Below, in pieces: positions 7,192-59,087 of a stretch of 64,000 bases of DNA. The first letter of the stretch is position 1. Each line of letters starts with the position of its first letter. The translations under genes and the position numbers were made by a program. Source of the DNA: Corallium rubrum. Taxonomy: Eukaryota > Cnidaria > Anthozoa > Scleralcyonacea > Coralliidae. Where the stretch lies: positions 62,001 to 126,000 of the forward strand of contig CAXIUP010000174.1 of NCBI GenBank assembly GCA_964035015.1, in the 5' to 3' direction. The notes below the pieces were generated by a model. That model was not told where the DNA came from, did not search any database, and saw only the letters and a list, made by a program, of their open reading frames with translations.

Positions 7192-7250
7192 TTTAATGTT
7201 TCTGTTTCTTGCTTGAAAAATCTGTTTTCAGTTTAAAAATATTAAGATTA

Positions 7251-13832: not shown

Positions 13833-13865
<33 letters not shown>

Positions 13866-21581: not shown

Positions 21582-21608
21582 GGGACGGACAGGCGCGTCA
21601 ATCCTGGG

Positions 21609-21980
21609 CCCACAGGACGAAATTTGAGATTTAATTACCTTTAATGGGCACTTAAATCTCCTTAAAGTTAATCCATTAACTTTAAGGAGTATTTAAGTTT
21701 ACCTTAAAGTCATTAAACGTTAAAATGTCATTTTAAGTTACATTTAATTAAGATATAAGGACCAAAGACTTTAAGGACCTTTAATATATATCATAAAGTG
21801 TCATTAAAGTTGACGTGGAACTTTAAATGTAATTAAGTTACACTTAAATCTCAGTAAAGTTAGAGAAATCCTTTACTATGGCTTTAGTTGCACCTTTAAT
21901 TACCATTAAAGCTCAGCGTACCTTTAATACACTTTCAAGAGTTTAGTAAGTTCACTTAAATGTTGACAGCTAGCTTGACA
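21609..21980. promoter_or_regulatory. Left subterminal motif cluster of the CACTA-like element
   Basis: More than twenty copies of words like CTTTAA, TTAAAG, CACTTAAA and ACCTTTAAT occur in both orientations within 370 bp, including a hairpin at ~21652-21698. In plant CACTA elements such subterminal repeats bind the TnpA-type accessory protein; the same role here is inference. Confidence 0.7.
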
Positions 21981-22282
21981 ATAGACCAAGAATAACTTAA
22001 TATCCCGTGGTTAATTAATTGATGCCGCGCTAGAGAGAATGGCTTTGTTGACTTATTTTTCTTCTGCTTTATGAGTCAAATTGTCTATAGAAGTAATTTT
22101 AACTTACGATGGAGAACTGAGTCAACAAAACTGGGACGTTTAAACTATTTGTTGATCTTTGTTTACTCATAACCTAGCAACAACAAACCACAATTTCCTG
22201 TCAATCTTATTCCTTGTGAAATGTGAGTAAAATACACCTGATTTGATCTCTGCTTCGATCTGTGTGGTTGCGACTATTTGCG

Positions 22283-22289
22283 TATATAA
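22283..22289 (+). promoter_or_regulatory. Candidate TATA box of the transposase gene
   Basis: TATATAA lies 46 bp upstream of the proposed ATG at 22335, downstream of the subterminal motif cluster. Confidence 0.45.
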
Positions 22290-22334
22290 CTATAAGGTTG
22301 GTTTGAATAGAATTTGGGAAAATACTACTACAAT

Positions 22335-23811
22335 ATGGATGGATTACAAGATCTTCACATGTGTGGCCATTGTGATCAACTAGTTTCAAGATCAACGTTA
22401 GAGAGACACGAAAGGAAGAGACAACGTGAGTTGCTAGGACAGCATACCCAGCTTGTCTTGGAAGAATCGGATAGTGAAGAATCGGATAGTGAAAGTGTTA
22501 CAAGTTCAGGTAAGATGGAACATTTTGTGCTAGCCTACGTTTAGACGTATGACCAATTTCTTTGATAAAAACCGCAACATCGATGTTCATTCAGCCTATT
22601 GACATCGTTCGTAAAAATCGTTTATGGGATATTTCGAAATAAGAGTAAGACCCCACAAAATATAAAGACGCTGGAAAACTCATTATTCATCCATACAAGG
22701 CGCAGAACAAGAGGCATAGTTTTAGAAATTATTAATACGCAAACTAAAAATATTTGGTTTACGCAAACTTTGGTCGTTGAAATGCTTACTTTAAAGGACA
22801 CAGTGTAGATGCCACTCCGAACAACGAAATCAAATAAATTTTAATACATCGTTGCTCGGAGTAGCGGGTATGGGCAAAGTAAAGAGGGTTTTACACTTGA
22901 CTTTGAAAGTTCTCATTAGACGCTTGTTTCAGCATCATCCGAAAACTGTGCCTTCTATTGTGTTTGCCCTTAATCGGGGGGGGGGGGGGGGGTCAATTGC
23001 AGGGGGATATACATGTATCAAGGGTTGTTGGAAGCTCTATTTTATAATTTTTCGATTCTTTTTCTCTATATTTCTATCGGTGCAACCAATCCCCAGAGAT
23101 TCAAGAAATAATAATATTTTTGCCATGTTGGAATTTTAATTGTTAATGCAGAGAAACCTTTTAAGTCATCCAACATGATATCAATAATGTAAGATGCAAA
23201 TAATAATGATGTAAGATGCAAATACCCAAAGTTTTAGCATATTTCATTCTATTTTATAAAACAGATTTGTCATAACAAGGCATTTGATTTGTTGAGCACC
23301 TATTCTTTTCCAGAGTATAATGAATAGAAATAATGCCAATTTTTTTGTGTATAAGGAATTTTCTTATTATTTTCTTGGTCAAAAATTTGTAAAAAGTAAT
23401 TTTCCAGTTGGCAAAATACCCTTTTAATAAATTGGCAATTACATACAACAATTGCATACAGTGTACGTTTTATTTTGCTAGGTAAAAATAATACTTCAAA
23501 TGGCTGTTGTATTATCACAAAAGAAGTAATTTTCTGACCAGATTCACTGGAGAGTTTTGTTCGTTTTTGTTGTTTTTTTTACTTCTTGGTAAACAACGCC
23601 TAATGTGCCATGGCTACAAAGGAATTAGTCTCTCGTAATGAGCAAATTTATACATTGTGAAGTGTGAAGGTCAATTTATAGAAAAATCAATCAAACACAA
23701 AAAATTGTCCATCCTAAATTCTCTGCATAGTCTCAAAATTCATATTTTCTTCAAGTGGCAAACTAGTCATTATAATTACTGAAAAAAATAAATAAATAAA
23801 TAAAAAAAAAT

Positions 23812-23845
<34 letters not shown>

Positions 23846-26800
23846 CATAAATTATTATAAGAACCAATATAGAAATACACTGTACCTCCTTACCTGTGCA
23901 ATACAGTACATTGAAATTGGAATTGTACTAACAGTGTAACTGCAACAGTACAATGAAGTTGCCACAACTTTGTATGTGTGTACTGTACATTATAACATTA
24001 ATTTAACATTTAACCTTTTTCGTTCTAACAGATTCCAACAACGCAGTAAATGAAGATGCCCATTCTCATTCAGACAGGATGCCAGACTCAGACTTGGTGA
24101 GTACTGTATAGATTTATTGCAGCATTAATATTGCACAACCAGGATGGAAATATTTGCAGTCAAGATTAGTTTTAAAAAATACTATATTATATATTATAAC
24201 TTACTTTGTGATCGTATTCACCACCTATGGATTGCATTGCCATATCGCTTAAATATTTGCTATTCAGTCAGCATTAAAGCCCTTATTTTAACATTGTTTG
24301 CAATTAGGATTTGCCTGACCACGATAACAACCCTGGTACTGGTTGCACTGAAAATGAACAAGACTCTGACTGTTCAGAATGTGAAAGTCATGTGACAGAC
24401 TCATCGACCGATGATGAGGATAGCGAAGAGGTTTGGGATAATGTTCTCCCAAGTGATCTTCAACGAGATTTGAATGGAGAACCTTCACCGCTTCCTGATC
24501 ATCAAAGAAAACAACAAAAGGGTATGGTACATTCATTGGTATTTTGGCTTGTATATTTTCTTTTAATGTGGCAACTCTCATGCCATATTAGTGACAATGG
24601 AATGGCATGGCTCCTACGTTTTTTGGGTGCTTGGTTGAAAGTACTGGGGGTGGCAATTCCAAATGACACACTCACCCAGCTTATAACAGTCTTTCCTGGA
24701 ACACTTTTTATGCTTAGGCAGTTTTTTCACTTTGACAGGGATGACTTTGATAAGTATGTTGTCTGTCCAAAGTGTTGTAAACTGTATAAGTATAATGAGT
24801 GTCTGACAATTCTGAATAATAAACAAGTTGGAAAATTATGTTCTGGATTCCATTACTCACGAGAAAAAAAAGTAACATGTGGTGAAGCCCTTGTCTATAA
24901 AGTGCAGCTGAAGAATGGAAAGAGTTGTTTCTATCCCATTAAATATTATTGTTACAACAGCATAATTAATGCCTTGGAAAGACTTCTTAAAAAAGAAGGT
25001 TTTGCTGAAAAATGTGAACACTGGAGAAACAGGTCAATGAACAATGATGAAATGGCAGACTTTTATGATGGAAAAATTTGGAAAGAATTTCTGACAGTTA
25101 ATGGAACGGATTTTTTGAAAGCACCCCGGAATTATGGTTTTATGCTAAACTTTGACTTCTTCCAGCCTTTGAACCGAAGAAAAGATTATTCGGTTGGAGT
25201 ATTCTATCTGGTTTTATTGAATCTGCCAAGGGCTGAAAGGTTCAAATGGGAGAATGTCATTGTCATTGGCATTGTACCGTCAATGAATAAAGAACCTAAA
25301 AACTTGAATGAATTTCTTAAACCAGCTGTGGAAGAGTTGCAGTGTTTGTGGAAAGGCATGAAGTTGGAATCTACCCTATGTCGGTTTCCCATAACATTTA
25401 GGGCAGCTGTGATGTCAGTTTCAGCAGACGTTCCTGCAATTAGAAAGTTGGGTGGATTTAAAAGTCATTCGGCAATTCACGGTTGCTTGCATTGTCTGAA
25501 GGCGTTTCCTGGAGGTTTTGGAGTCAAAAGGGACTACTCTGGTTTTGACAAAGAAAATTGGGTGCCCAGAACCAATCAGCGGCATCGACAATTGTCCAAA
25601 AAAGTAGACAAGATAAAAACACAGTCAAAACAAGTTAAATTTTGCAGGGACAATGGTATAACACACTATAGTATTCTACTTGATCTTCCATATTTTGATG
25701 CTATCCGCTTCTTCACAGTTGATCCTATGCATAATTTATTTCTTGGCACAGCCAAAATGATGTTTCACTTGTGGAATAATAGTATCCTGTCGCAGAAAGA
25801 TGTACAGAATATCGAGCAGCGTATTGGTACAATGGAAGTCCCAAGTGACATTGGCAGACTCCCTGCCAAAATATCATCAAATTCTGGTTGTTACACTGCT
25901 GAACAGTGGAAAAACTGGACCCTGACTTATTCATTGTATTGTTTAAAGAATATTATACAAGATGATCATTTCAAGTGCTGGCAGACATTTGTACTTGCAT
26001 GCAGGTACATTTGCCAACCAGTCATATCACGAGCAGATATGGACATTGCAGATGGATTGTTTACCAAGTTTGGCAAACGAGTTGAGGAATTGTATGGAAA
26101 GGAGGTAATTACTCCTAACATTCACCTTCACTGTCACCTAAAGGACATTGTGTTGGACCATGGACCAGTAGCAAGCTTTTGGTGTTTTAGCTTTGAGAGG
26201 TTCAATGGAATATTAGGAAGTATTCCCACAAACAAGAGATCAGTCGAGTTACAGCTGATGAGAAAGTTTAAGTTGTCACACTTCTTTGAAGAGAAGTCAT
26301 TTCCTAGCCTGTTCAAAGAAGACCTTCTTCACCTGTGTACTGATGTAGAAATTGGATCCACAATTCAAATTGGGCTGATCGTTGGGCAGTTCATAACCTC
26401 AGTATAGCATCACCCATGCCTATTGGGGCTGTGTGGAAAAATCAATCAGCTGTGTTCCTTCCATCCAATTACAAATTAAGCTCTTTGGATTCAGATGATG
26501 CCAAACTTCTTTTTGAAGTTTACAAGATGCTCTATCCTGCAGCTTCAATATCAGAGAATGATATGAGCATGTTAATCCACAAGTATGGGTCAGTAACTAT
26601 TGCAACAACAATGTATGGTTCAAAAATTGAACCTCGAGGAATAAGATCTGCAAAAATTCTTGCCTCGTGGCCAGCAAATTGTGGGGTTGTCAATAAGACA
26701 TCATTTTTCCTGTCACCAGGAACAGTCAACTATTATTTTACACATGTGCTAGTCTTAGATGGAGAATATGTTTCTCACACCTTTGCCTGTGTAAAATGGT

Positions 26801-26994
26801 ACAAACCAGATGGAGATAGTACAATAATTGGTAGTCCTGTACAGGTATGGTTATCTGATTGTCAAGAAGGGGGCCCTTCATCATTTATTCCTGTACAGAG
26901 AATTCACTCCAAATATGCAAGTGCAAAACTATCAAAATTTAATGGCAGTAACGGTGTAGCTGTATCTCCTATCATTAGAAGAACTTTCTTATGA
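22335..26994 (+). CDS. TNP2-type CACTA transposase, three exons, apparent frameshift
   Basis: Exon 1 (22335-22509) encodes MDGLQDLHMCGHCDQLVSRS, a CxxC plus His/Arg-rich segment usual at the start of TNP2-type proteins, then an acidic run. Exon 2 is 24032-24096; exon 3 starts at 24308. All junctions are GT/AG and in phase (1, then 0). Exon 3 encodes a Cys-rich segment (CPKCCKLY...CGEALVYKV), the hallmark VDPMHNLFLGTAKMMFHLW near 25720-25780 and FSFERFNGILG near 26190-26220. The latter two fit parts of the DDE-type catalytic core of Transposase_21/TNP2 proteins. The first frame ends at 26407. A second frame, open from 26344, continues with the expected C-terminal region (AVFLPSNYKL to IIRRTFL) to 26994. 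The shift must lie in 26344-26404 and looks like a 1-bp deletion (or an assembly error), so this copy is probably defective. The full product would be about 980-1000 aa. Confidence 0.9.
22510..24031 (+). other. Intron 1 of the transposase gene
   Basis: It begins GTAAGA after TTCAG and ends TTCTAACAG. It contains a G14 run (~22978-22992), an AT microsatellite (~23814-23842) and no credible coding frame. Intron 2 (24097-24307) begins GTGAGT and ends TTGCAATTAG. Confidence 0.75.
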
Positions 26995-27461
26995 CAATTT
27001 GTTCTCCTACATGTACATGTATCTTCTCAAAAAATGAGAATGACAAACATGCTACACTGTACAGTATGTACAGCACTGTAGTAAATGCTCTGTAACAGCT
27101 CTATACTTTGCTGAATATACAATACTGTGTCAAGATTATATTACTATACTGTGTGAAGACTACATACTTTTGTCATTGTCAGCAAGCTGAAACTAGTTTA
27201 AAACTTACATACAAGTTTAGAACTTGTATGGCACTATGCAAGTTTACTGTTCATCACATTCTTTTTTACATCAAACCTCGCTTTGGTAGAAGAGAAAGAG
27301 GACAATTTGTCACATCAAGCAAGGTTTGCTGACAAAGTGTGACACAAACTTGTATAAGCTTTGCCATTGTAAGATTTCATTACTTTCATTTTGGAGACTG
27401 GTAACAAGTAGCAATAGACGAACCAGGCGGAAAGCGTAATCTTGTCAGGAATATTAAAGCC

Positions 27462-27739
27462 CAGCATATAATTTTAAAAAGCCCCATATTGAAAGAGACA
27501 TGAGTTATTTCAATTTTTTTATTAAAACTAACGTTTCGTTGCTAATCCTGCAACATCTTCAGAGTGAATAATTATTTACAAGGTTATCTTATATATTAGC
27601 ATATAAGTCAAGATAACCTTGTAAATAATTATTCACTCTGAAGATGTTGCAGGATTAGCAACGAAACGTTAGTTTTAATAAAAAATTTGAAATAACTCAT
27701 GTCTCTTTCAATATGGGGCTTTTTAAAATTATATGCTGG
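27462..27739. repeat. Near-perfect 278-bp palindromic MITE
   Basis: Arms of about 120 bp pair almost perfectly: CAGCATATAATTTTAAAAAG on the left, its complement at the right end, and GAAACGTTAGTTTTAAT and GAAGATGTTGCAGGATTAG further in, around a ~30-bp AT-rich loop near 27600. ACTGGTAACAAGTA (~27398-27410) before it and GCTGGTAACAAGTA at its right end may be remnants of a target duplication or of an older unit. Confidence 0.85.
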
Positions 27740-28498: not shown

Positions 28499-28537
28499 TA
28501 TGTCGCTGTGCACTTAATCAATAAATTGGGAGTTAAC

Positions 28538-31394
28538 TTAGACTGAGTGAAATTTTAATTTGGGTACAATTTCATGCATTGTTGGCCTGTCCTCAATTTT
28601 CCTGCGCATGCAAGCTATATGTATGTCGTTAAGAATTCTAGATTGCTTACACTGTGCAATTAACTTACACGTCTGAGATAGAAGGAGACCATACGCATAA
28701 ATATCTGACTTAAATGACTGACTATGTGTCCCTTTAATAAGTTCTGGGGCAATATGACAGTGATATTTTTGATATTTCCATTGCTCATCTAGGGTTAGGT
28801 TATACTTCTTAGGATTTTTTGTTGTACGGCACTTACCAAAGTCAATGAGGACTGGATTTAAACAAGAGCCTTGGGCTGACAGCAAGATATTATCACCTTT
28901 GATGTCATTGTGAAGAAAACCTTTTTCATGGACATAGAGCAAAGCTTCTCCAGTTTTTCTGAATAGTCTAATCCACTTGGCCAATGATGTAACCACAGAT
29001 GATTGCATAGCATTTTGAAATGTCATGCAATTGCCATTAATCCCATGAAATTGTGTTACCATCAGGTAGGGCTTCTCATTCAGACAGACTCCAAATAACA
29101 ATGGTAATCCTATAAGAATTATTTCGTGTAAGTAAATCTAATGATTGGTTGCAATTAATCAATCCCACAAAAGTTGGAGGGTGACAGATCAAATGGCTAT
29201 TACAGTATACATGTACTGTAAGTAACATTTGACATTTCACTTGATTAAACTACACTGTATGTGTTCACATGTATGGTGAAGGAAAATTTTGAGTGAAGAA
29301 TTTTCACATTTTAAGACATAACATGGGAAAACATATTAACCATGGCAAATTTTTATCCTAGATAGTTCTGAAGAGAACTGTTTGAAACTTAGCAGAAGAA
29401 GAATAAAAGATCTGGAGCATAGTACCGTACATTTAATTCTAGAAAGAAACACTATGTATTTTGTGACTGCTCTTTTTTTACTACTCTTCAGATGCAATAT
29501 CTGCTAACTAAAATAAGAACTTGAGTCTATATTTATGTGAAACGTTATGACAAAGGGTTAAAAATGAATTTTTTGAACAGTTCTTTTCAGAACTATCCAG
29601 TATAAAAATGTACATTGGTAAAAATGTTTTCCCATGCTATAATTATTTAAATTTTTCACCACGACAAAATCTTTGTATTAATACATTTTCTCAGTGGTCA
29701 GAGCACTGCACTAGTATCACAGGGTTGTGTGTGCGTTTCCAGTCAGAAGGTCTAACATTGCATTTTTGCAACTGGTTCCTGTCTGATCCTAAGATGTATT
29801 GGTGGGTACATTAGCATCTACTGTACTGTAACATAACATAATCTTATATTATGTTGCATTATTTTAATATCTGGACACTGCACATGGCCGGCAGGTGTGA
29901 ATAAAGATAGAATTGGAGTTTCCTCTGATATCAAGAATATTAACACCTTGGTTTGTGTTATCCTTTTCAGGTTTGATAATTCTTGATATGCTTCAACTCA
30001 TCTAATAATTGTTAAAATTCATCACAGACACTGTAGACACATTGGGCATTTGTGAAATAAATAAATGTATTATAAATATTTATTACCTGGGTGATCAAAC
30101 TGACTGATAGCATCAGCTTCCAACTGAACAGAATTTATATCAACATAATCATGGTATGCTTTTACGGCGACAATAATTCCTCTATACACCATCTTCTTAC
30201 AATTTCCAAAAGCTCCCTTTCCAAGGGTTATTGAATCACCTGCATTTCCTTCTTTTAAATTTTTACGTTCCAGAATTTTAGGACCTCTACAAATTTTGAA
30301 AGTACATACTGTACTGTACAGTCTAGGATAGCTATGAAAAAAGAGAAAGGCAAGGTTGAGTACTGGGGATAAAAACCCATTGGTTTTAAAATAAATATTC
30401 ATAACTACTGTACATGTATTAAATTTTACAGCATATCCTACTTTCCTTGATAATTTACCACCCAACCTAGTGTTGGGCTATTTTATTCAAAAACCATAGA
30501 ATTATTCCCTCTACATGTATTTCCCATTTTGGATTTGTTCAGGAAACTGGGTAATTGCAGTATGAGATTGCAATTACATCAATGTTATTGATATGTATTG
30601 CTGGGTTGCATGTTGGTTGGTTAATACAAAAGAATATTATATTCAATGTTATTGTACCTTCCAATTAACATGCCCACTTGGCCTTTGCCCTGCAATTCTC
30701 AGGGGATTGATTGAAAACCACCAATATGCCTGCACCCTAAGAATTCTTATTATTAAACATTGCAGTAAACTCCTGACGAATTTCCAAAAAAGTGATGCAC
30801 ATGTCCTAAATTAATTGGCTATATTTATGTACATGTATAGCCCTGAATAATTCCACATAATTCCACAAGTAATTAACTCCTACAGTATCTGGTGGATAAA
30901 TCCTTGCATAAACTCATGTTTTGAACATCCAAATTAATATTTTATCTTCCAAATAGGGAGTCATTTATCTGATAGCTCAATTCTCCAAATAAAATTTAAG
31001 TTAAGTTGTTCAAAGCATGGATAGCACTGTTCCTTCAGTAGGACTTACTGAAGAATTCCAGACTGCACGAAATTAAAGGCAGCTAATACAGTAGGCATCG
31101 AGGCATGCTCTGAAGAATTAGTTCCTCAACAGGCGGTACAGACCTGAACAAGCTAATCACAATCTAGATAAACCATTATTTTTTAGTCCTTTAAAGGCTA
31201 TAATAAACTCATACATATATCATTTAAATATTGATTTATAAATGCTTTACTATCAAGCATGAATCAAAATGTAAGTTTTATATTCAGACTGAAGGGCACA
31301 AATCCAGAAATACATGCAAAACAAAAATCTCACCTATAGATTTTGAGTTTTCTATCTTTCTCCTTCTGGTAACTGGTCCGACAGAGTTTCGAGA
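28538..31394 (-). CDS. Kinase gene, 3' part (end of exon 1, exons 2 and 3)
   Basis: The piece left of the foldback element: exon 1 tail (31394-31334, ending ATCTATAG before GTGAGA), intron of ~1.05 kb, exon 2 with the glycine loop and VAVK, intron of ~0.98 kb, and exon 3 with HND, DFG and APE to the stop. The whole catalytic domain lies here, so a truncated kinase could still be made if transcription started in the foldback element. The junction HP|GLPLLFGV across intron 2 reads continuously. Confidence 0.85.
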
Positions 31395-34300
31395 AACCCC
31401 GTGAAGTTAGCTGCCAATTCGCCAGCTGCCAATTCACTGCCAATTAAGATAGCTGCCAATTCAATTTCGCGATGACGCTTCCAGGGGGGAGCGCTCGAGC
31501 AGCAGTCGGCTTCGCAGAATAATCGGTTTCGCCGGTCTTTTAACTTGTTCAATCCAACTTTAACAAAAAATAATAACTCACAATCGATAATTTAAGACAT
31601 TTACGTGCATATGAACAATACTTCTTCAAGTAAACTTATGTTTTAAGATTGCTAGACTTTAATATATTCTCCTTCGAATTAATAACAAACTATTAGTCTG
31701 ACAGCCGAGCAGTAATTTGTCGCTACAATGTTTTCTGATAGGTAGATGGGAAATCCGAAAACAGCGTTAGATTCCCCGTAAAAATCTGCATCGATCAGTA
31801 TGAAGCTCACCTTTACAATTTTAAATTGATTGATTTGACTCAAGTCCAAACACAATTTTTCTGTTTACGCGCGTTAAAGTGCATGACGTATCAAAATATA
31901 GTGTTACACAGTCTTTTCACGCTACAAAATTTTCTGATCGGTAGATGGGAAATCCGAAAACAGCGTTGAATTCCTCGTAAAATTCTGCATCGACAAGTAT
32001 GAACCTCACCTTTACAATTTTAAATTGGATGATTTGACTCAAGTCCAAATACAATTTTTCTGTTTACGCGCGTTAAAGTGAATGACGTATCTAAATATAG
32101 TGCTACATAGTCTTTTCAGGCTACAAAATTTTCTGATCAGTAGATGGGAAATCCGAAAACAGCGTTGGATTCCCCGTAAAATTCTGCATCGATCAGTATG
32201 AACCTCACCTTTACAATTTTAAATTGGTTGATTTGACTCAAGTCCAAAGACAATTTTTCTGTTTACGGGCGTTAAAGTGAATGACGTATCTAAATATAGT
32301 GCTACATAGTCTTTTCAGGCTACAAAATTTTCTGATCAGTAGATGGGAAATCCGAAAACAGCGTTGAATTCCCCGTAAAATTCTGCATCGATCAGTATGA
32401 ACCTCACCTTTACAATTTTAAATTGATTGATTTGACTCACGTCCAAACACAATTTTACTGTTTACGCGCGTTAAAGTGCATGACGTATATCAAAATATAG
32501 TGCGACACAGTCTTTTCACGCTACAAAATTTTCGGATCAGTAGATGGGAAATCCGAAAACAGCGTTAGATTCCCCGTAAAATTCTGCATCGATCAGTATG
32601 AACCTCACCTTTACAATTTTAAATTGATTGATTTGACTCAAGTCCAAAGACAATTTTTCTGTTTACGCGCGTTAAAGTGCATGACGTATCAAAATATAGT
32701 GTTACACAGTCTTTTCACGCTACAAAATTTTCTGATCGGTAGATGGGAAATCCGAAAACAGCGTTGAATTCCCCGTAAAATTCTGCATCGACCAGTATGA
32801 ACCTCACCTTTACAATTTTAAATTGGTTGATTTGACTCAATTCCAAAGACAATTTTTCTGTTTACGGGCGTTAAAGTGAATGACGTATCTAAATATAGTG
32901 CTACATAGTCTTTTCAGGCTACAAAATTTTCTGATCAGTAGATGGGAAATCCGAAAACAGCGTTGGATTCCCCGTAAAATTCTGCATCGATCAGTATGAA
33001 CCTCACCTTTACAATTTTAAATTGATTGATTTGACTCAAGTCCAAAGACAATTTTTCTGTTTACGCGCGTTAAAGTGCATGACGTATCAAAATATAGTGT
33101 TACACAGTCTTTTCACGCTACAAAATTTCTGATCGGTAGATGGGAAATCCGAAAACAGCGTTGAATTCCCCGTAAAATTCTCCATCGATCAGTATGAAGC
33201 TCACCTTTACAATTTTAAATTGATTGATTTGACTCACGTCCAAACACAATTTTACTGTTTACGCGCGTTAAAGTGAATGACGTATCAAAATATAGTGCGA
33301 CACAGTCTTTTCACGCTACAAAATTTCTGATCAGTAGATGGGAAATCCGAAAACAGCGTTGAATTCCCCGTAAAATTCTGCATCGATCAGTATGAACCTC
33401 ACCTTTACAATTTTAAATTGATTGATTTGACTCACGTCCAAACACAATTTTACTGTTTACGCGCGTTAAAGTGCATGACGTATATCAAAATATAGTGCGA
33501 CACAGTCTTTTCACGCTACAAAATTTTCTGATCAGTAGATGGGAAATCCGAAAACAGCGTTAGATTCCCCGTAAAATTCTGCATCGATCAGTATGAACCT
33601 CACCTTTACAATTTTAAATTGATTGATTTGACTCAAGTCCAAAGACAATTTTTCTGTTTACGCGCGTTAAAGTGCATGACGTATCAAAATATAGTGTTAC
33701 ACAGTCTTTTCACGCTACAAAATTTTCTGATCGGTAGATGGGAAATCCGAAAACAGCGTTGAATTCCCCGTAAAATTCTGCATCGACCAGTATGAACCTC
33801 ACCTTTACAATTTTAAATTGGTTGATTTGACTCAATTCCAAAGACAATTTTTCTGTTTACGGGCGTTAAAGTGAATGACGTATCTAAATATAGTGCTACA
33901 TAGTCTTTTCAGGCTACAAAATTTTCTGATCAGTAGATGGGAAATCCGAAAACAGCGTTGGATTCCCCGTAAAATTCTGCATCGATCAGTATGAACCTCA
34001 CCTTTACAATTTTAAATTGATTGATTTGACTCAAGTCCAAAGACAATTTTTCTGTTTACGCGCGTTAAAGTGCATGACGTATCAAAATATAGTGTTACAC
34101 AGTCTTTTCACGCTACAAAATTTTCTGATCGGTAGATGGGAAATCCGAAAACAGCGTTGAATTCCCCGTAAAATTCTACATCGATCAGTATGAAGCTCAC
34201 CTTTACAATTTTAAATTGATTGATTTGACTCACGTCCAAACACAATTTTACTGTTTACGCGCGTTAAAGTGCATGACGTATCAAAATATAGTGCGACACA

Positions 34301-49300: not shown

Positions 49301-52300
49301 AAATTTAATCGGAAAAAAACAACATTGCACAGATTTGCAATACGCGTAAATCAATGGTTGGTTTGTCCTTCTGCGGAAGCCGCCAGATGCAGTTTGTGTG
49401 GTATACAATACAAAAACAAATATTTGAATAATTTGATCCGGAACATTGTTTCCATTACTTGGGGGTGTTGCTAAATTTAAAGCTTCATACTGATCGATGC
49501 ATAATTTTACGGGGAATCTAACTCTGTTTTCGGATTTCCCATCTACTGATCAGAAAATTTTATAGCGTGAAAAGACTGTGTCGCACTATATTTTGATACG
49601 TCCTGCACTTTAACGCGCGTAAACAGTAAAATTGTGTTTGGACGTGAGTCAAATCAATCAATTTAAAATTGTAAAGGTGAGCTTCATACTGATCGATGCA
49701 GAATTTTACGGGGAATTCAACGCTGTTTTCGGATTTCCCATCTACTGATCAGAAAATTTTGTAGCCTGAAAAGACTATGTAGCACTATATTTTGATACGT
49801 CATGCACTTTAACGCGCGTAAACAGAAAAATTGTCTTTGGACGTGAGTCAAATCAATCAATTTAAAATTGTAAAGGTGAGGTTCATACTGATCGATGCAG
49901 AATTTTACGGGGAATCCAACGCTGTTTTCGGATTTCCCATCTACCGATCAGAAAATTTTGTAGCGTGAAAAGATTGTGTAACACTATATTTTGATACGTC
50001 ATGCACTTTAACGCGCGTAAACAGAAAAATTGTCTTTGGACTTGAGTCAAATCAATCAATTTAAAATTGTAAAGGTGAGGTTCATACTGATCGATGCAGA
50101 ATTTTACGGGGAATCTAACGCTGTTTTCGGATTTCCCATCTACTGATCAGAAATTTTGTAGCGTGAAAAGACTGTGTCGCACTATATTTTGATACGTCAT
50201 GCACTTTAACGCGCGTAAACAGTAAAATTGTGTTTGGACGTGAGGCAAATCAATCAATTTAAAATTGTAAAGGTGAGCTTCATACTGATCGATGCAGAAT
50301 TGTACGGGGAATTCAACGCTGTTTTCGGATTTCCAATCTACCGATCAGAAAATTTTGTAGCGTGAAAAGACTGTGTAACACTATATTTTGATACGTCATG
50401 CACTTTAACGCGCGTAAACAGAAAAATTGTCTTTGGACTTGAGTCAAATCAATCAATTTAAAGTTGTAAAGGTGAGGTTCATACTGATCGATGCAGAATT
50501 TTACGGGGAATCCAACGCTGTTTTCGGATTTCCCATCTACTGATCAGAAAATTTTGTAGCCTGAAAAGACTATGTAGCACTATATTTTGATACGTCATGC
50601 ACTTTAACGCGCGTAAACAGAAAAATTGTCTTTGGACTTGAGTCAAATCAACCAATTTAAAATTGTAAAGGTGAGGTTCATACTGATCGATGCAGAATTT
50701 TACGGGGAATCTAACGCTGTTTTCGGATTTCCCATCTACTGATCAGAAAATTTTGTAGCGTGAAAAGACTGTGTAACACTATATTTTGATACGTCATGCA
50801 CTTTAACGCGCGTAAACAGAAAAATTGTCTTTGGACGTGAGTCAAATCAATCAATTTAAAATTGTAAAGGTGAGGTTCATACTGATCGATGCAGAATTTT
50901 ACGGGGAATCTAACGCTGTTTTCGGATTTCCCATCTACTGATCAGAAAATTTTGTAGCCTGAAAAGACTATGTAGCACTATATTTTGATACGTCATGCAC
51001 TTTAACGCCCGTAAACAGAAAAATTGTCTTTGGACTTGAGTCAAATCAATCAATTTAAAATTGTAAAGGTGAGGTTCATACTGATCGATGCAGAATTTTA
51101 CGGGGAATCTAACGCTGTTTTCGGATTTCCCATCTACTGATCAGAAAATTTTGTAGCCTGAAAAGACTATGTAGCACTATATTTAGATACGTCATTCACT
51201 TTAACGCCCGTAAACAGAAAAATTGTCTTTGGACTTGAGTCAAATCAACCAATTTAAAATTGTAAAGGTGAGGTTCATACTGGTCGATGCAGAATTTTAC
51301 GGGGAATTCAACGCTGTTTTCGGATTTCCCATCTACCGATCAGAAAATTTTGTAGCGTGAAAAGACTGTGTAACACTATATTTTGATACGTCATGCACTT
51401 TAACGCGCGTAAACAGAAAAATTGTCTTTGGACTTGAGTCAAATCAATCAATTTAAAATTGTAAAGGTGAGGTTCATACTGATCGATGCAGAATTTTACG
51501 GGGAATCTAACGCTGTTTTCGGATTTCCCATCTACTGATCAGAAATTTTGTAGCGTGAAAAGACTGTGTCGCACTATATTTTGATACGTCATGCACTTTA
51601 ACGCGCGTAAACAGTAAAATTGTGTTTGGACGTGAGTCAAATCAATCAATTTAAAATTGTAAAGGTGAGCTTCATACTGATCGATGCAGAATTTTACGGG
51701 GAATTCAACGCTGTTTTCGGATTTCCCATCTACCGATCAGAAAATTTTGTAGCGTGAAAAGACTGTGTAACACTATATTTTGATACGTCATGCACTTTAA
51801 CGCGCGTAAACAGAAAAATTGTCTTTGGACTTGAGTCAAATCAATCAATTTAAAATTGTAAAGGTGAGGTTCATACTGGTCGATGCAGAATTTTACGGGG
51901 AATTCAACGCTGTTTTCGGATTTCCCATCTACTGATCACAAAATTTTGTAGCGTGAAAAGATTGTGTAACACTATATTTTGATACGTCATGCACTTTAAC
52001 GCGCGTAAACAGTAAAATTGTGTTTGGACGTGAGTCAAATCAATCAATTTAAAATTGTAAAGGTGAGGTTCATACTGATCGATGCAGAATTTTACGGGGA
52101 ATTCAACGCTGTTTTCGGATTTCCAATCTACCGATCAGAAAATTTTGTAGCGTGAAAAGACTGTGTAACACTATATTTTGATACGTCATGCACTTTAACG
52201 CGCGTAAACAGAAAAATTGTCTTTGGACTTGAGTCAAATCAATCAATTTAAAATTGTAAAGGTGAGGTTCATACTGATCGATGCAGAATTTTACGGGGAA

Positions 52301-53721
52301 TCCAACGCTGTTTTCGGATTTCCCATCTACTGATCAGAAAATTTTGTAGCCTGAAAAGACTATGTAGCACTATATTTAGATACGTCATTCACTTTAACGC
52401 CCGTAAACAGAAAAATTGTCTTTGGACTTGAGTCAAATCAATCAATTTAAAATTGTAAAGGTGAGGTTCATACTGATCGATGCAGAATTTTACGGGGAAT
52501 CCAACGCTGTTTTCGGATTTCCCATCTACTGATCAGAAAATTTTGTAGCCTGAAAAGACTATGTAGCACTATATTTAGATACGTCATTCACTTTAACGCC
52601 CGTAAACAGAGAAATTGTCTTTGGACTTGAGTCAAATCAACCAATTTAAAATTGTAAAGGTGAGGTTCATACTTGTCGATGCAGAATTTTACGGGGAATT
52701 CAACGCTGTTTTCGGATTTCCCATCTACCGATCAGAAAATTTTGTAGCGTGAAAAGACTGTGTAACACTATATTTTGATACGTCATGCACTTTAACGCGC
52801 GTAAACAGAAAAATTATGTTTGGACTTGAGTCAAATCAATCAATTTAAAATTGTAAAGGTGAGCTTCATACTGATCGATGCAGAGTTTTACGGGGAATCT
52901 AACGCTGTTTTCGGATTTCCCATCTACCTATCAGAAAACATTGTAGCGACAAATTACTGCTCGGCTGTCAGACTAATAGTTTGTTATTAATTCGAAGGAG
53001 AATATATTAAAGTCTAGCAATCTTAAAACATAAGTTTACTTGAAGAAGTATTGTTTATATGCACGTAAATGTCTTAAATTATCGACTGTGAGTTATTATT
53101 TTTTGTTAAAGTTGGATTGAACAAGTTAAAAGACCGGCGAAACCGATTATTCTGCGAAGCCGACTGCTGCTCGAGCGCTCCCCCCTGGAAGCGTCATCGC
53201 GAAATTGAATTGGCAGCTATCTTAATTGGCAGTGAATTGGCAGCTGGCGAATTGGCAGCTAACTTCACGGGGTTTTTCGAGAGCCTTTTCTCTTGAATAT
53301 AATCCTGTTCTGCCTTGTGCAATTTATCTTCGAGTCCTTTGATTGCTTGATTTGCTCCTCGAGAATATTTCGTTCTTCTTTCCTTTCGACTTAGATTTCT
53401 AAACGACTCACGCTTCTGTTTGTTTCTGCGACTCCTTTTCTTTCGTAGCAATTCTATGTTTCTTCTAGTTGACTTGCCAGAAGTGGAGGTGGCGACGTTA
53501 ACTGCTTGGCTTTCAAGATGCTGATTTTGGTATGGCCGATCGTCAGCAAGCGAAAAACCGCTCGCACGATCTGCTAATAAGCACGGTAAAGGCGCATTAG
53601 CTTGACCATACTTACTAACAGCGAACCCGACAGCATTGCAGTGAGACATCTTCGAGTTCTTTCCCTCCATTTCGAATGATTTCTGGCGCCAAAGCCAGAT
53701 GACCAAAGGTTCAAAGTGCAT
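28538..53721 (-). CDS. Transposon-borne protein kinase with basic coiled-coil N-terminus, exon 1 split by a 21.9 kb insertion
   Basis: Exon 1 runs 53721-53275 and, past the inserted element, 31386-31334. Exon 2 is 30286-30087 and exon 3 is 29109-28538. Removing the insertion with one TTTCGAGA copy gives 1272 nt, exactly 424 codons, with GT/AG junctions in phase. Predicted residues ~75-165 are strongly basic and helical (RKKRSRRNKQKRES, then a coiled coil). The kinase domain shows a glycine loop GKGAFG (189-194), VAVK Lys209, a candidate helix C Glu223, catalytic loop HNDIKGDN (Asp302, Asn307), DFG (323-325) and APE (354-356), so all key catalytic residues are present. The HND in place of HRD and the short tail to residue 423 are notable. 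The class is probably tyrosine-kinase-like or divergent Ser/Thr; the substrate is unknown. As it stands, the insertion introduces stop codons and would abolish the full-length product. Confidence 0.85.
29285..29670. repeat. Imperfect inverted-repeat element in kinase intron 2
   Basis: CATGGGAAAACATATTAACC near 29320 pairs with the segment ending at ~29637, and TAGTTCTGAAGAGAACTG near 29363 pairs with CAGTTCTTTTCAGAACTA near 29580. The outer arms are weaker. Non-coding. Confidence 0.55.
31395..31719 (+). repeat. Left 325-bp outer inverted repeat of the foldback element
   Basis: The first ~70 bp contain four copies of a GCTGCCAATTC-like word (candidate transposase-binding sites). A unique segment with GCGCTCGAGCAGCAGTCGGC and an AT-rich inner part follow, up to where the satellite starts. 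Confidence 0.9.
31720..47525 (+). repeat. ~199-bp satellite array, about 79 monomers
   Basis: Monomers share landmarks GTAGATGGGAAATCCGAAAA, CCCCGTAAAATTCTGCATCG, CCTCACCTTTACAATTTTAA, TTGATTTGACTCA and TTAAAGTGCATGACGTAT. Monomer types differ by a few diagnostic bases (GCGCG or GGGCG; TTACACAG, CGACACAG or CTACATAG). The types recur in higher-order patterns: ~995 bp (five monomers) at 32.5-35.5 kb, ~2,582 bp (thirteen) at 38.7 versus 41.3 kb, and 397 bp near 40.4-41.1 kb. The last monomer near 47.4-47.5 kb is degenerate. No coding capacity. Confidence 0.95.
47526..49479. other. Central spacer of the foldback element
   Basis: AT-rich unique sequence between the opposing satellite arrays. Open frames are short (at most ~100 codons) with no recognisable domain, so it does not encode a transposase. 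A C/G-rich pair at ~47800-47860 and ~48165-48215 (GAGGCCG versus CGGCCTCC with long C runs) may be ends of a further small nested insertion. Confidence 0.6.
49480..52949 (-). repeat. ~199-bp satellite array, inverted, about 17 monomers
   Basis: The same monomer family as 31720-47525, in opposite orientation. The outermost monomer next to the TIR (CATCTACCTATCAGAAAACA) matches the outermost monomer of the left array, so the arm is continuous across TIR and satellite. Monomer variants also recur here, but the array is less than a quarter as long as the left one. Confidence 0.95.
52950..53274 (-). repeat. Right 325-bp outer inverted repeat of the foldback element
   Basis: Reverse complement of 31395-31719 with about two mismatches by eye (CGACTGTGAG against CTCACAATCG, and TTTATATGCAC against GTGCATATGAA). 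Such identity suggests a recent insertion or ongoing arm homogenisation. Confidence 0.9.
53275..53721 (-). CDS. Kinase gene, 5' part of exon 1
   Basis: Starts at ATG 53721, the first ATG downstream of a minus-strand TATAAATA at 53785-53792. Encodes a Ser/Ala-rich start, then a highly basic segment (KKRSRRNKQKRES, RKERRTKYSRG), then the beginning of a coiled coil, up to QEKRLS where TTTCGAGA and the inserted element follow. Beyond that point the open frame runs ~27 codons into the inserted TIR, reading repeated LAANS-type residues that are not part of the native protein. Confidence 0.8.
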
Positions 53722-54111
53722 TTTAACCGGATATTAACAGATGAGCGGGAAGTTGGCCCTCTACTATAAAATCTGTTCAGTGGATATTTATAAAATTGCA
53801 AGTTTTAGAATCCTATCTGATTCCATATGTAACTGGCATAGCTACATAAGTTACAAACATATTTTCTGAAAGGCTATGGTATTCTAAAAGGTTTTAAAAA
53901 TAAGCGAGTCAATGGCATCACCACCGGCTAATAGGTATATCGATATCTAATTTAGGGGGTCTTATGTACCAACCATATATAAAAACAAGTCATCGCGCAC
54001 CAATTATTCAAAATTGCGCTCATTTTCCAACAGCCAGTTGCAGGTTTGCTTCGTGGTGCTAGGTTGTTGAACAGCGAATTTTTTACTTTGATCTCGCACC
54101 AACTGCGTTAA
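53722..54111. promoter_or_regulatory. Divergent promoter region of the kinase and coiled-coil genes
   Basis: 390 bp separate the two start codons. A minus-strand TATAAATA (53785-53792) lies ~65 bp from the kinase ATG, and a plus-strand TATATAAAAA (53976-53985) lies ~130 bp from the ATG at 54112; the two boxes are ~184 bp apart. Co-expression of the two genes is inference. Confidence 0.55.
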
Positions 54112-56888
54112 ATGGCTACAACGGATGCCCATGATACAAATAGGCAAGGAGGTCAAGATCAAGTGCTGATTCTCCTTGAGGAAATTGCGCGCACAAATCA
54201 GAAGTTGAATGAGGAGAATCGTGTCCTGCGGGAAGAGTTGAAGCAGAGAGATGAGAAAAATCGTCAGGCATTTGCGAGTTTGGAACAAAAGCTGGGTGAA
54301 GCGACAAATCAATCTCCTCCCGAAACCAAAAGAAAACGACGAAGAGTGCAAGAAGTGCGAGTGCCTACGCAATGTCGGGTAATTCACTTTATATTTTTGA
54401 AATATTTTTGTTTGTCGGTTGATGTTCCTCGATTAATGAATGAAATACACAGTTTCTAAAGCCACTTCAGATTTAATACATGTTCTGTTTACACGCGCGC
54501 GATTTTTTCGATTTTTTTTCAACCTGACGTATGCGATTGAATGGATACACTTGTTACGAAAGTACTGATCTACTAAAACGGGCACCGTGCGTAAATCAAT
54601 ACTTTTGTAAGTCATCAACTCAATCACATACGTCAGAATGAGAAAGAGCATTGACGTACGGCAGGGTGAGGGCGGTGTGTGTGGGGGGGGGGGGGGGAGA
54701 TAGAGCTTTTACGGTAAATTCCAAGTTTTGCTAGAAAATATGCTATTTTCTATATTTTACTCATTTGCTACACTTACTTAAAAAAAATATTGTTTTCACC
54801 ATTGGAAGATAGAATTCATATCTTTGTGCCATCATCACATCATGTAATATCCTCTAGTTATTATATATTAATTTTTTTCTAGAGAATTACAAAACAAGTC
54901 TACAAAACTTTGTTGCAACGAGATGATTTCCTTGGTTTCACTCTCACAGAAAGGTACATCGAGTATATTTGAATATATTTAATTCTTAATAATTATTATA
55001 GTATAGACCACTTACAGAGTTCAGATAGATAAAATGTCAAATAATAATAGGGGCATCGGAAGCTCACCTGGTAATTTATAAGGTAATACCATGATTGACT
55101 TGGTTTCTTTTGTTCTCACTGATTTCCCTGATTTGGGGAAAATTTCTAATTTTCTCCTCATTCACATGCATGAGTGAACATCAAATTTTCATTCAATTTT
55201 ACTCCTCACAAGGGACATTAAGCATGAATATCATGGTATTACAAACTCATACCATGACTTGAGGGAAATTAATGATTAAATTTTGCCTTAGCCTCGGGAA
55301 GATTTGTAAAACAGCTGAGGGGAAATTTAATCCTGTAATTTCCCTCAAGTCATGGTATAATACTTATAATACTTACTGTATATAATTTGCTTGGTATACA
55401 TTTTGATACCCTGGATACCAGCTAGCAGTGCGAAGATCAGAAAGAAGATGTCAGGGCATTTTCTAATGATCATTTTGAAATAAAATATCATCTGTCCTAT
55501 TTATTTTTTTATAGTGTTCTATCTAATAGCAACAAGGAAATAATTGAGGGTGTTGTTAGAGAAGTACAGCAATATCAAGGGCAGGAGAATGGTGGATGGT
55601 CTCAGTTGCAAATTGAAAGTATGTACTGTGTTAAAGTGATATAATTATACTGTCTCAGCTGGCTCTTGAAATTTTCCAGGCAGTGGTCACCTTTTGCATT
55701 TAAAGCCACAGGAAAACCAATGGTTGCCCATGGATGTAAGTGGGTAATTGCAGCTGCCCAACAGAAATTTCAAGATTTGTATGTTCAACATAAACAGTTT
55801 CTATATGAAAATCTAATAGCAATTACTTTCTTATACTTTTAGGAAGTGCAATAAGAAATTTCCTAATCTATGCGAACAAATTCGTATCATAGGAGCTCTT
55901 ATAGTTTTCTGTATGAATTTGATGATCAAAATCTAATAGGAATTCGGACCTATTGGATTTTTGTATGGGTGAATAGCCTTGATATATAAGTGGCTAGTAA
56001 ATTAATTCAAACAGGAGTATTTCTAATGTGACAAAATATCAATGAAATTTAGGAATCAAGTTTTGTTTTAAAACAAAGTATTGGACTACTGTATAGGTTT
56101 ATAGTTTATATTGCCCAGAAAGGAAAACCAAGATTTAATTAATGGCAAAGAGTACTGCGTATAAAATACAATGTAGCCTGCATGTGCACATCCAGAAATT
56201 CTGGCAGGTTTTCTAAATGTGCACAGAGGCTATGTACAGTACATATAAAAGTCAGTTTCATAATACCACAATGCTTCTACAACTGCTTATTTATAGTGTT
56301 ATAAAATGCCATGATTAATATTAATGACAAATTCTTCTTACTTTACAGCTGTACTGAAAAGATATTTCATCTCTTTGTATGAAAAGGAAAAGAAAACAAT
56401 TGAGGGAAAGTATCAGGCCCATAAAAAGAACTGTAGAAGGAACTGTCGGAAAAGAGATGTATGTTTAGAATTTGGATGATAATTTATTCAATATAATAAT
56501 TGAGCATGCTCACTTAAAAAGTCACATCAGTAATTATTATCGGACCTTTTCACAAATAATTATTACTTGAACACTTTTTAATTTTTCAATAAAAGGAACA
56601 AATTAACCCTTTCACCACCGTGGTGGCCCATTACTATTTTACTCTTGCTGACGCCATACGATTTTACTCGTCAAGGGAGAAGGTCTGGTGGTGAAAGGGT
56701 TAAAATAGAAAGAAGGAATTCACTATGCCCTGTAGGTATTGTTTGTTTATCTATTGGTAAGAGTTAGCTGCTAGCTGTTGTTAATTAACGACATATCTTT
56801 AGTTCATTTTTTTGCAGCGCTTTTAGGGCTTTCAAACTACTACAATTGGTTGTTTTCTAAGGGTTCAGCCTTTTTTTGATACACACAC

Positions 56889-56921
<33 letters not shown>

Positions 56922-57212
56922 AATGTTTACAACACGAGCGGCCGTGTTGTATTGAATATACAATCACAAGCCGAAATAAACAACTTGTGAAATGAATAAA
57001 TAGTAAAAATCCTTTTGGGATATTGAGATGCTAATTTGCTAATTAGCTACAAGCACTAGTGGTTGTATCAGAAGAGTATACATCCACCAGTGGTTGTAAC
57101 TAATTAGCATCATTGGTTTTAGTTTGTATGGGGTTTACAGGGGTATACATGTGATGTAATTTCTGAAATTGGATTGGCTGCAAAACTCATGAATTAGTAA
57201 TGAATTTCACAA

Positions 57213-57269
<57 letters not shown>

Positions 57270-57880
57270 TATACCAATAAGTGTTTGTAACAAAAAGGCG
57301 TAAGGTTCTAGAGCGCTCGATACCATTATAGGTACAGTAGAGCGGAATATAATTAAGATTTAATGCTGTGTCGCTACTCCGAGTTTCACGCTTTCGCGAT
57401 CTTCAGCCTGAAGATCACGAAAGCGTGAAACTCGGAGTAGCGACACAGCATTAAATCTTAATTATATATATATATATAACATTGACTCACATTTCTTTTG
57501 ATTCTTTTTTAACCATTTGATATCTTAATTATTTCCAGAAACTGACCAGAAGAACTCTTGCATTGGAGAAGGCTAATTGGAGTGTCAAAAAACGAGGCAG
57601 AGTTGCTGAAGTTCTAGTAGATGATGCCATGTCGAGTGAGGAAAGTTGCACCGAGACCAACAGTGACGGAAATTCAAAAGTTGTGGCATACAATATAAGG
57701 CGCCTTGCCTGGGAAAGTGAACGCTTCAAAAAGGCGAAAAAAGATCTGGATTCAGCATATAATAAACATTTAACTGAAAGGGCAAAAAGCAGAATTCTCC
57801 CACGCCGTGAAAATGTTAGTCAGCCATCAACTCGTCCAGAACCAAATGATTTTCCTGAGTGGGCACTCATGCGTGCATAA
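54112..57880 (+). CDS. 297-aa coiled-coil basic protein, candidate CACTA accessory DNA-binding protein
   Basis: Five exons: 54112-54378, 54883-54953, 55515-55618, 56349-56458 and 57539-57880. All have GT/AG junctions and phases 0, 2, 1, 0, totalling 894 nt (298 codons with stop). Residues ~15-65 form an acidic/basic coiled coil (LLEEIARTNQKLNEENRVLR). KRKRRR at ~74 is a likely nuclear localisation signal. Exons 2-4 encode a helical domain with conserved-looking aromatic residues (LKRYFISLY) and a CRRNCRKRD basic cluster. The C-terminal third is charged and ends PEWALMRA. I do not recognise the family. Its position in a CACTA element with a separate transposase, plus basic coiled-coil character, suggests a role like plant TnpA, which binds subterminal repeats; this is inference. 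The open frame persists past the first splice site, but with no sensible sequence. Confidence 0.75.
56603..56703. repeat. 101-bp MITE with TTAACCCTTTCACCACC ends, in intron 4
   Basis: The left end TTAACCCTTTCACCACC and the right end GGTGGTGAAAGGGTTAA are exact inverted repeats, with TTAA at both borders. The interior ACGCCATACGATTTTACTCG belongs to the family seen near 13840, 14720, 60365 and 63440. Confidence 0.8.
57218..57262. repeat. AT microsatellite in intron 4
   Basis: About 22 AT dinucleotides. A shorter tract is at ~56890-56915. Low-information sequence. Confidence 0.9.
57347..57466. repeat. 120-bp near-perfect hairpin in intron 4
   Basis: ATATAATTAAGATTTAATGC on the left pairs with the right end, and the match continues through TGTCGCTACTCCGAGTTTCA and CGCTTTCG to a loop of only a few bases at ATCTTCAGCCTGAAGAT. 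One mismatch is visible (GCGATC against GATCAC). It sits 73 bp before the final exon. Confidence 0.85.
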
Positions 57881-58065
57881 ACTTTTATCAAATATGCACA
57901 TTTTTAACTTATTCTCTCTCTTTTGAATATAAATATTAATACCTATAGTTAGTTGACTTGTTCGGCTATAGCTTGGTGTCCTAAGGTTTATATAATCAGC
58001 TGGTACAACGCACGATCGATCGAGTGAGTTTAGAGTAGTTCAAAATTACTTTGAATAACTAAGAC

Positions 58066-58338
58066 CATGTCCCACGAGGCAATTTTCCTTGCAACTTGCA
58101 ACGCAATTTTTGTCAAAAAAATATTGCAAGTTGCAGTGGGGGTGTCACACGCTGCAACTTGTCTCGTAGCGTTGCGAAAAGTAGAAGCTGCTTCTACTTT
58201 CTCTGCGACTGGCAACGCAATTTTTCGCTGCGAGACTAGTTGCAAACATGGGGTGTCACACGAGGAAATCTTTCTTGCAACTTGCAATACAACGCCATTG
58301 CGTTGCAAGTTGCAAGGAAAGCTGCCTCGTGTAACATG
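58066..58338. repeat. 0.27 kb MITE with TTGCAACTTGCAACGCAA arms
   Basis: The left end ACGAGGCAATTTTCCTTGCA pairs with the right end TGCAAGGAAAGCTGCCTCGT. The interior has repeated TTGCAACTTGC-type words and two GGGGTGTCACACG segments. Non-coding, between the coiled-coil gene and the CACTA right end. Confidence 0.75.
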
Positions 58339-58689
58339 GCAATAAGCTAAGTACAGCTTGGGTTCACATAAATGTCATAAACTTTCGAATTTCCTTCTCC
58401 TTTATTTTATATAATGCCAATGGAATTAATGTTAGTGTGTTGTAGAATGTTTTAATTTCAATAAATATCATTTAAAACTACTTGGTCTGGTGATTTTAAT
58501 CAATGTTGTTGTATTGATCATTTACGGAAAGTTTTCATTTGCGCATCCAAATAACTGAAATCTCTATATCTCACCGGCGCGTAAAGTAGAAATTTAAAAG
58601 ATTTTTTCTTTTTTTTTTAAAAAAAGAATAATATGACGACAGTATTCCAAAACAAATAATTAGGAATTTATCATTCAGTAAAGTTCACC

Positions 58690-59087
58690 TATATCTGTAT
58701 TTCTTGACATTTACGCAAGCCTTAAATATATATTAAATATACATTTAAGTGGATTTAGTGAACCTTTAAGGTGGGTTATATGTATCATAAATCAGTAATT
58801 GTAAAGATTTAATGGTTTTTAATGAGCTTTAAGGGAACTTAAATCTCTATTTCCTTTACATTTAGGTAGTCAATTAAAGCTTAACTAAATGTAAAATTAC
58901 AGAGAATTAATGAGCATTTAAGGGTACCCATAAATGGTTCATAAATCGGCTTTAAATGAGCACTTAAATGTCACTTAAAGTTATATTTAATAAATTTAAG
59001 TGTACCTTAAAGGCACATTAATTGGTTCAATACGTTAGCTTTAATGAGCATTTAAGGTAACTTAATTTTCTTATTTCGTCCTGTGGG
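58690..59087. promoter_or_regulatory. Right subterminal motif cluster of the CACTA-like element
   Basis: Dense CTTTAA, TTAAAG, CATTTAAG and CACTTAAA words in both orientations across ~400 bp, mirroring the left end. It terminates in ATTTCGTCCTGTGGG. Confidence 0.7.

Follow-up and report, generated by a model that had tools for sequence, protein, structure and literature searches.

A CACTA element of Corallium rubrum that holds a TNP2 transposase, a protein kinase and a coiled-coil accessory gene

The DNA analysed here, referred to as the window, is a stretch of 64,000 nucleotides from Corallium rubrum (assembly GCA_964035015.1, contig CAXIUP010000174.1, positions 62,001 to 126,000 of the forward strand). 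It contains a transposable element of 37475 bp (21611-59085, the ends being set by comparison with other copies) bounded by terminal inverted repeats (TIRs). Three genes lie inside: a TNP2-type transposase on the plus strand, a protein kinase on the minus strand and a coiled-coil gene, called the accessory gene below, on the plus strand (Table 1). The window copy is damaged, with its TNP2 frame broken and the first kinase exon split by an insert. The order TNP2(+), kinase(-), accessory(+) was found in all six near-identical, TIR-bounded copies of the element in the assembly.

A first-pass annotation of the window, made from the letters alone, had placed a TNP2-type transposase and a kinase inside the element, and both assignments were borne out. 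The transposase matched Pfam Transposase_21 (E=3.5e-14; 52.9 bits, cut-off 28.6), and residues D283, D374, C393-C396, H606-H610 and E630 were invariant in 16 of 16 aligned sequences, including the window TNP2. The C(2)C and H(3-4)H motifs lie between the second D and the E, the choice of second D being our own assignment. C1a, C1b and C39, which are near-identical to the window copy, keep the TNP2 frame open for 899-900 codons where the window frame breaks. The kinase gene comprises three exons and 406 codons, with GT/AG introns and all exons in phase. Its spliced protein matched PF00069 (Pkinase domain, E=1.5e-24) and retains K192, D285 (in HND), N290, D306 (in DFG) and APE at 337-339; by its catalytic Lys, HxD, DFG and APE motifs, the protein is a kinase of the conventional Pkinase type. 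Copies C39 and C1a have kinase exon 1 in one uninterrupted piece and use the same splice sites as the window model. Scans of viral contigs with the TNP2 alignment and with the kinase query found no relative.

The coiled-coil gene reported earlier was correct in part. An independent accessory gene of five exons and 297 codons occupies 54112-57880 on the plus strand, but the minus-strand coil at 53.3-53.7 kb is kinase exon 1, and a separate minus-strand coiled-coil gene at that position was rejected. The start codons of kinase and accessory gene face away from each other across 441 bp, which may possibly serve as a shared promoter. The six relatives found for the accessory protein include proteins of Actinia, Paramuricea, Exaiptasia and Desmophyllum. 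The predicted model of one of these (P0187) had a mean predicted local distance difference test (pLDDT) score of 66.5, and comparison of the accessory alignment with PDB sequences gave no informative match. Mirrored TTTAA-type clusters near both ends, also described earlier, were confirmed: the two ends, 722 bp in all, contain TTTAA/TTAAA 40 times, whereas in 1000 simulations of a stretch with the composition of the interior the count averaged 5.4 and reached 16 at most.

We then asked how often the three genes occur together elsewhere in the genome. Of 267 TNP2 candidates 64 were scored, and these gave 66 matches that merged to at least 51 loci. For the kinase 102 of 186 candidates were scored, so that the counts of TNP2 and kinase loci are both minimum values; for the accessory gene 85 of 85 candidates were scored and gave 57 matches. 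Every one of the 102 kinase and 57 accessory matches entered the final co-occurrence count. Of the 20 TNP2 loci with at least 52% identity to the window copy, 18 had a kinase on the opposite strand no more than 30 kb downstream, and none of the 31 loci below that value did. An accessory gene followed TNP2 within 50 kb, on its strand, at 17 of the same 20 loci and, again, at 0/31 of the more distant ones, and it was paired with the kinase at 17 of the 18 kinase-bearing loci. The kinase lay no more than 3.8 kb away at 16 of these 18; the assignments at C82:810035 (a partial match, 9.5 kb off) and C176:78909 (23.7 kb off) are weaker. About 0.003 kinase matches would be expected at a random place, and chance co-occurrence of TNP2, kinase and accessory gene was considered and rejected. 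Reading of the sequence itself gave the same picture: in the 10 kb behind TNP2 copies at 78, 69, 58 and 58% identity a kinase and then an accessory gene followed in every case (4/4), and in the 4 kb behind copies at 48, 43, 43, 41 and 26% no kinase was present (0/5), these 4-kb stretches being too short to judge the accessory gene, which sits further off where present. The earlier proposal that the kinase is a stable third gene is thus supported, since the check suggested for it, recurrence of the same gene order between the TIRs of other copies, gave a positive result. Kinase-accessory pairs without a scored TNP2 beside them were noted by eye at C1:73.34 Mb, C52:5.15 Mb, C130:97 kb and C20:3.68 Mb.

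TNP2 sequences were placed in a tree of 41 rows, made by a quick method and rooted at the midpoint for drawing only. It covers 30 cut-out loci merged to 28, out of the 51 or more loci, together with L009, L010 and 11 proteins; the kinase-bearing loci C82:798616 and C176 and the kinase-less locus C1:74341129 lie outside it. All 16 labelled kinase-bearing TNP2s fell within one 22-row clade with a Shimodaira-Hasegawa-like approximate likelihood ratio test (SH-aLRT) value of 99. The clade also holds five unlabelled proteins from other sources, and its sole labelled kinase-less row is C277, a match with nine stops. The kinase label on the tree is explained by two changes, likewise by a quick method. 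The ancestral state was probably a transposase with an accessory gene, the kinase having been captured probably once and seldom lost. The accessory partner probably predates the kinase, since an accessory-like gene is present at two kinase-less loci (described below) and in L009. A scan of genome contigs gave three stretches in bacterial metagenome-assembled genomes (MAGs), all of which we take for eukaryotic contamination. One of them, L009, on a Pacebacteria MAG contig and probably contamination, carries a eukaryotic-looking TNP2 with an opposite-strand accessory-like C-terminus (SSEES, PEWAL).

Kinase and transposase have diverged together. Identity to the window copy was correlated between the two proteins (Spearman 0.86, 13 loci; a run that used 42 of the 102 kinase matches and left out loci at 95% identity or more). 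Between copies C39 and C82 the ratio of nonsynonymous to synonymous substitution rates (dN/dS) was 0.13 for TNP2 (677 codons), 0.23 for the kinase (398 codons) and 0.13 for the accessory gene (225 codons, with a dS of 2.6 that is near saturation). The kinase of C39 compared with that of C20 gave 0.28 at a dS of 1.7, other distant pairs being saturated. On these ratios, the kinase is under purifying selection between diverged copies, less strictly than the transposase. Transposons capture host genes, and the kinase, which evolves faster than the transposase (0.23 vs 0.13), could be a captured passenger or a cargo useful to the host, with no part in transposition. We regard this as improbable, as the gene is retained in a fixed place and orientation beside TNP2s with differences at roughly half of their positions, is under purifying selection and has relatives in several anthozoan species.

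Those relatives include P0121 of Actinia tenebrosa and P0123 of Paramuricea clavata, which match 95% and 99% of the kinase length, coil included, and P0122 of P. clavata, which matches 85%. TNP2 P0001 and kinase P0122 of P. clavata are each on a contig of length 23220, kinase P0121 and accessory P0188 of A. tenebrosa each on one of length 25818, and kinase P0124 and accessory P0190 of Exaiptasia each on one of length 782142; equal lengths within a species were taken to denote the same contig. Co-location in these other species covers gene pairs only, all three genes being shown on one contig in none of them. The element is a likely source of some small anthozoan kinase genes, such as those named 'STY13-like' and 'gdt4' in Actinia and Paramuricea.

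The ends of the element were delineated by comparing copies. The first-pass annotation had described perfect 15-bp inverted termini, and CCCACAGGACGAAAT does form a perfect inverted pair at 21609-21623 and 59073-59087. In the 474-Mb assembly its exact sequence occurs once forward and once reverse (control, 0), both times in the window. The remaining copies end two bases further in, at CACAGGACGAAAT; the 15-bp repeat was therefore rejected in favour of a family TIR of 13 bp, the element spans 21611-59085, and the outermost CC (left) and GG (right) of the window pair fall outside it. CACAGGACGAAAT, with CAC..GTG termini, bounds six copies at both ends. Of the 13 exact genome matches of CACAGGACGAAATWWGARA, twelve form six complete pairs that face inward and the last is a left end on its own; when up to 2 mismatches were allowed there were 94 places, compared with 31 for the reversed control.

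GGG had been noted on both sides of the element as well. The bases directly adjoining the window TIRs do not match (GCC vs GGG), but a GGG target duplication is likely when the window is compared with unoccupied sites. A search with the two window flanks joined together returned 29 matches, and a pair of these (C292 and C112) span the junction together with outer flank. Both of these empty sites read CAATCCTGGGGGGGATGG (CAATCCT-GGGGGGG-ATGG), and the filled site in the window reads CCTGGG, CC, the element and then GGGGGGGATGG. As this comparison leaves three G duplicated, the window copy likely has a 3-bp GGG duplication plus two added bases, CC, at its left end; the check by empty sites that had been suggested for the duplication thus supports it. 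The 3-bp flanks match directly in three of the six copies (C39, CTG/CTG; C51, ATA/ATA; C1c, GTG/GTG), and with the window copy, via its empty sites, a 3-bp duplication is seen in 4/6.

Flanks are mismatched in the other two copies, C1a (CAA/ATT) and C1b (ATT/TAT), which lie 16 kb apart in the same orientation within G000:C1:83979303-84026056; their outer flanks differ, and the facing ends, the right flank of C1a and the left flank of C1b, are both ATT. The shared ATT perhaps reflects an exchange between copies, or chance. Such a pair is what would be expected if a host block holding TNP2, kinase and coiled-coil gene had been copied by segmental duplication and were not mobile at all. This explanation is very improbable: the six copies share the TIR end with differing flanks, four of them show 3-bp duplications, and the two empty sites of the window copy contradict it.

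The element had been called giant, and this is true of the window copy only. The six full copies measure 15418, 15441, 15462, 17748, 25174 and 37475 bp; the basic size is about 15.4 kb (three of the six), and 37 kb was rejected as the usual size of the family. The window copy owes its length to a nested insertion of 21.9 kb (21,880 of its 37,475 bp). This insertion is foldback-like in that it has inverted tandem-repeat arms and a direct target duplication. Its satellite arms (31721-47515 and 49484-52948, inverted) consist of 79 copies of a 199-bp unit on one side and 17 on the other, the outer inverted arms of 332 bp are 99.1% identical, and the 2-kb spacer is without a long open reading frame (ORF), the longest open stretch being 115 codons. 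Copies C39 and C1a show the uninterrupted site with a single TTTCGAGA. An element of this kind could be a seed of satellite DNA. A related CACTA element (G000:C20:2230724-2281741, TNP2 69%), with likely ends 51 kb apart, has probably also been enlarged by nested insertions. Around the window element, the two outer flanks, 21526-21581 and 60248-60463, align in a single run with a repeat copy at 13665-13950 (91% and 82%, respectively), and a further insertion of about 38.7 kb that contains the CACTA element interrupts that repeat.

By its CAC..GTG ends, 3-bp duplication, Transposase_21 domain and the residues D283/D374/E630, C393-C396 and H606-H610, which agree with the account of EnSpm in PMC12730594, the element is a member of the CACTA/EnSpm (CMC) superfamily, a firmer placement than the CACTA-like label it first received. 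With known members it has in common TNP2, CAC..GTG termini, the 3-bp duplication, subterminal repeats and a second coiled-coil gene; the protein kinase as a stable third gene sets it apart. The usual account of a DNA transposon gives it a transposase and no more than a DNA-binding helper besides. In maize En/Spm, TnpD is the catalytic TNP2-type protein and TnpA the accessory that recognises subterminal repeats. The Corallium element appears to follow a similar two-protein logic, with DNA binding by its accessory protein putative and no Pfam relation found for that protein.

EnSpm transposases are described as DDE enzymes in which C(2)C and H(3-4)H lie between the second D and the E (PMC12730594). 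SmTRC1, an animal TRC element, has TIRs that begin CCC, and half of its analysed copies have 2-bp repeats next to them (PMC1636069), whereas the Corallium TIRs begin CAC and the duplication is 3 bp. In the red alga Chondrus, enlarged En/Spm families of 16-20 kb with 4-5 ORFs resemble our element as larger-than-usual CACTA elements holding extra genes; the word kinase is absent from that review (PMC6431247). The first-pass annotation knew of no module of transposase, kinase and coiled-coil gene. For CACTA elements this stands, no description of a kinase having been found in searches of the open-licence PubMed Central (PMC) literature, with repeat databases outside the search. For DNA transposons in general there is a precedent, as fungal IS3EU transposons carry a transposase, a TET/JBP dioxygenase and an alpha-kinase gene opposite to the transposase, with a 6-bp target duplication (PMC12730594). 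The two systems share a kinase gene oriented opposite to the transposase. They differ in transposase superfamily and in the kinase, which is alpha-type by name in IS3EU and Pkinase-type with a basic coiled-coil N-terminus in Corallium; an IS3EU-type kinase transposon was rejected for the window element, which has TNP2, a 3-bp duplication and a Pkinase domain instead.

What might the kinase do? The gene order is fixed, the kinase is divergently paired with the accessory gene, and it co-diverges with TNP2 under selection. On these grounds we propose that the coiled-coil kinase of this CACTA family, of which the window holds a damaged copy, promotes or times transposition by phosphorylating the accessory protein or TNP2; we give this proposal an even chance. 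In the manner of other DDE enzymes, TNP2 would act at the CAC..GTG ends by cutting and joining. Binding of the TTTAA-type subterminal repeats would fall to the accessory protein, in the role that TnpA, the subterminal-repeat binder of En/Spm, has in maize; the protein would also bring TNP2 to the element ends. The kinase, made together with the accessory protein from the divergent 441-bp arrangement, would act on the assembled complex and, by phosphorylating the accessory protein or TNP2, switch it on or off.

A second setting of the kinase bears on this proposal. L068 (G000:C1:61550300-61555299) and L069 (G000:C56:4531300-4536299), 99.9% identical over 5 kb, represent another multi-copy repeat. 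It carries a related intronless kinase (355 codons open, with a basic coil in front) and an ORF of 196 codons, and it adjoins an array of ~350-bp repeats; a third kinase match, with a score equal to theirs, is at C1:91324038. The kinase family may have spread into another mobile element. Such a spread would be expected if the kinase were useful to different mobile elements as a counter-defence gene, one acting on host silencing, chromatin or DNA-damage factors and so on element expression and break repair. In line with this, the best scores of the kinase domain among solved structures were to ordinary signalling kinases, B-Raf and ABL among them. Counter-defence is the main rival explanation and we consider it possible but rather unlikely, as an intra-element partner fits better with a kinase that is paired with the accessory gene at 17/18 loci and co-diverges with TNP2.

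Several observations weigh against our proposal. The two ORFs of at least 100 codons in the 5 kb of L068/L069 indicate neither TNP2 nor an accessory gene there, so that a host-directed or general role fits this kinase at least as well. That the kinase targets the element's own transposition proteins is our inference, and its targets may instead lie in the host. Two of the 20 closer TNP2 loci are without a kinase (C1:74341129 and the short fragment C1:2657469). More distant relatives without a kinase exist too, and at two of the 31 (C82:2191096 and C1:75792052) the opposite strand has an accessory-like gene upstream; the kinase is thus dispensable for CACTA transposition generally. Between the near-identical copies C39 and C1a the kinase dN/dS was 0.66, on very few changes, and kinase exon 2 of C39 differs in length by one base. 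The window accessory protein had no Pfam match below E 0.1; P0192 is the only relative that matches TNP-like_GBD (E 0.00043), and the matching part is, as judged by alignment, apparently absent from the window protein. The P0187 model had no PDB match at E 0.001 or better. To these are added the mismatched flanks of C1a and C1b.

A broader version of the proposal, that a whole CACTA lineage was built round a kinase that an ancestral element with transposase and accessory gene captured once and that became a core gene which licenses or times transposition, with related kinases in at least one other mobile element, is offered tentatively, at a little under an even chance. If it is true, coral-type genomes hold a class of kinase-regulated transposons. 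The kinase has likely been kept by selection in members of the lineage that are deeply diverged, and this points to phosphorylation as a means by which the element controls its own movement, or its host. The kinase probably aids the element's movement or survival, and that would be a new mode of transposon control. TNP2, kinase and accessory protein offer a concrete three-component system.

Table 1. Positions in the window of the CACTA element, its genes and the nested insertion
Feature	Position	Strand	Remark
Left TIR, CACAGGACGAAAT	21611..21623	+	End common to other copies
Right TIR, CACAGGACGAAAT	59073..59085	-	End common to other copies
Likely left target duplication, GGG	21606..21608		Followed by extra CC at 21609-21610; empty sites C292, C112
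Likely right target duplication, GGG	59086..59088		Opens a seven-G run; empty site
Left subterminal AT-rich cluster	21630..21960	+	TTTAA/TTAAA, CACTTAAAT, CCTTTAA
Right subterminal AT-rich cluster	58717..59060	-	
TNP2 exon 1	22335..22509	+	N-terminal CxxC...H...H motif; GT donor
TNP2 exon 2	24032..24096	+	
TNP2 exon 3	24308..26994	+	Catalytic core; frame broken ~26341-26353 in window copy
Kinase exon 3	28538..29109	-	C-lobe; HND, DFG, APE motifs; stop
Kinase exon 2	30087..30286	-	Glycine loop, VAVK
Kinase exon 1, 3' piece	31334..31394	-	GT donor at end; left of nested insert
Kinase exon 1, 5' piece	53283..53670	-	Start codon; basic coiled-coil region
Nested foldback-type element	31395..53274		Inverted 199-bp satellite arms round 2-kb spacer
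8-bp target duplication of nested element, TTTCGAGA	left 31387..31394, right 53275-53282		
Head-to-head stretch, 441 bp	53671..54111		Between kinase and accessory start codons
Accessory exon 1	54112..54378	+	
Accessory exon 2	54883..54953	+	
Accessory exon 3	55515..55618	+	
Accessory exon 4	56349..56458	+	
Accessory exon 5	57539..57880	+	Conserved SSEES and PEWA motifs

Elsewhere in the window, a minus-strand frame at 4027-7227 is open for 1066 codons and encodes a CHAT domain and tetratricopeptide repeats, the latter visible in the DNA as a 120-bp tandem array at 5960-6776.

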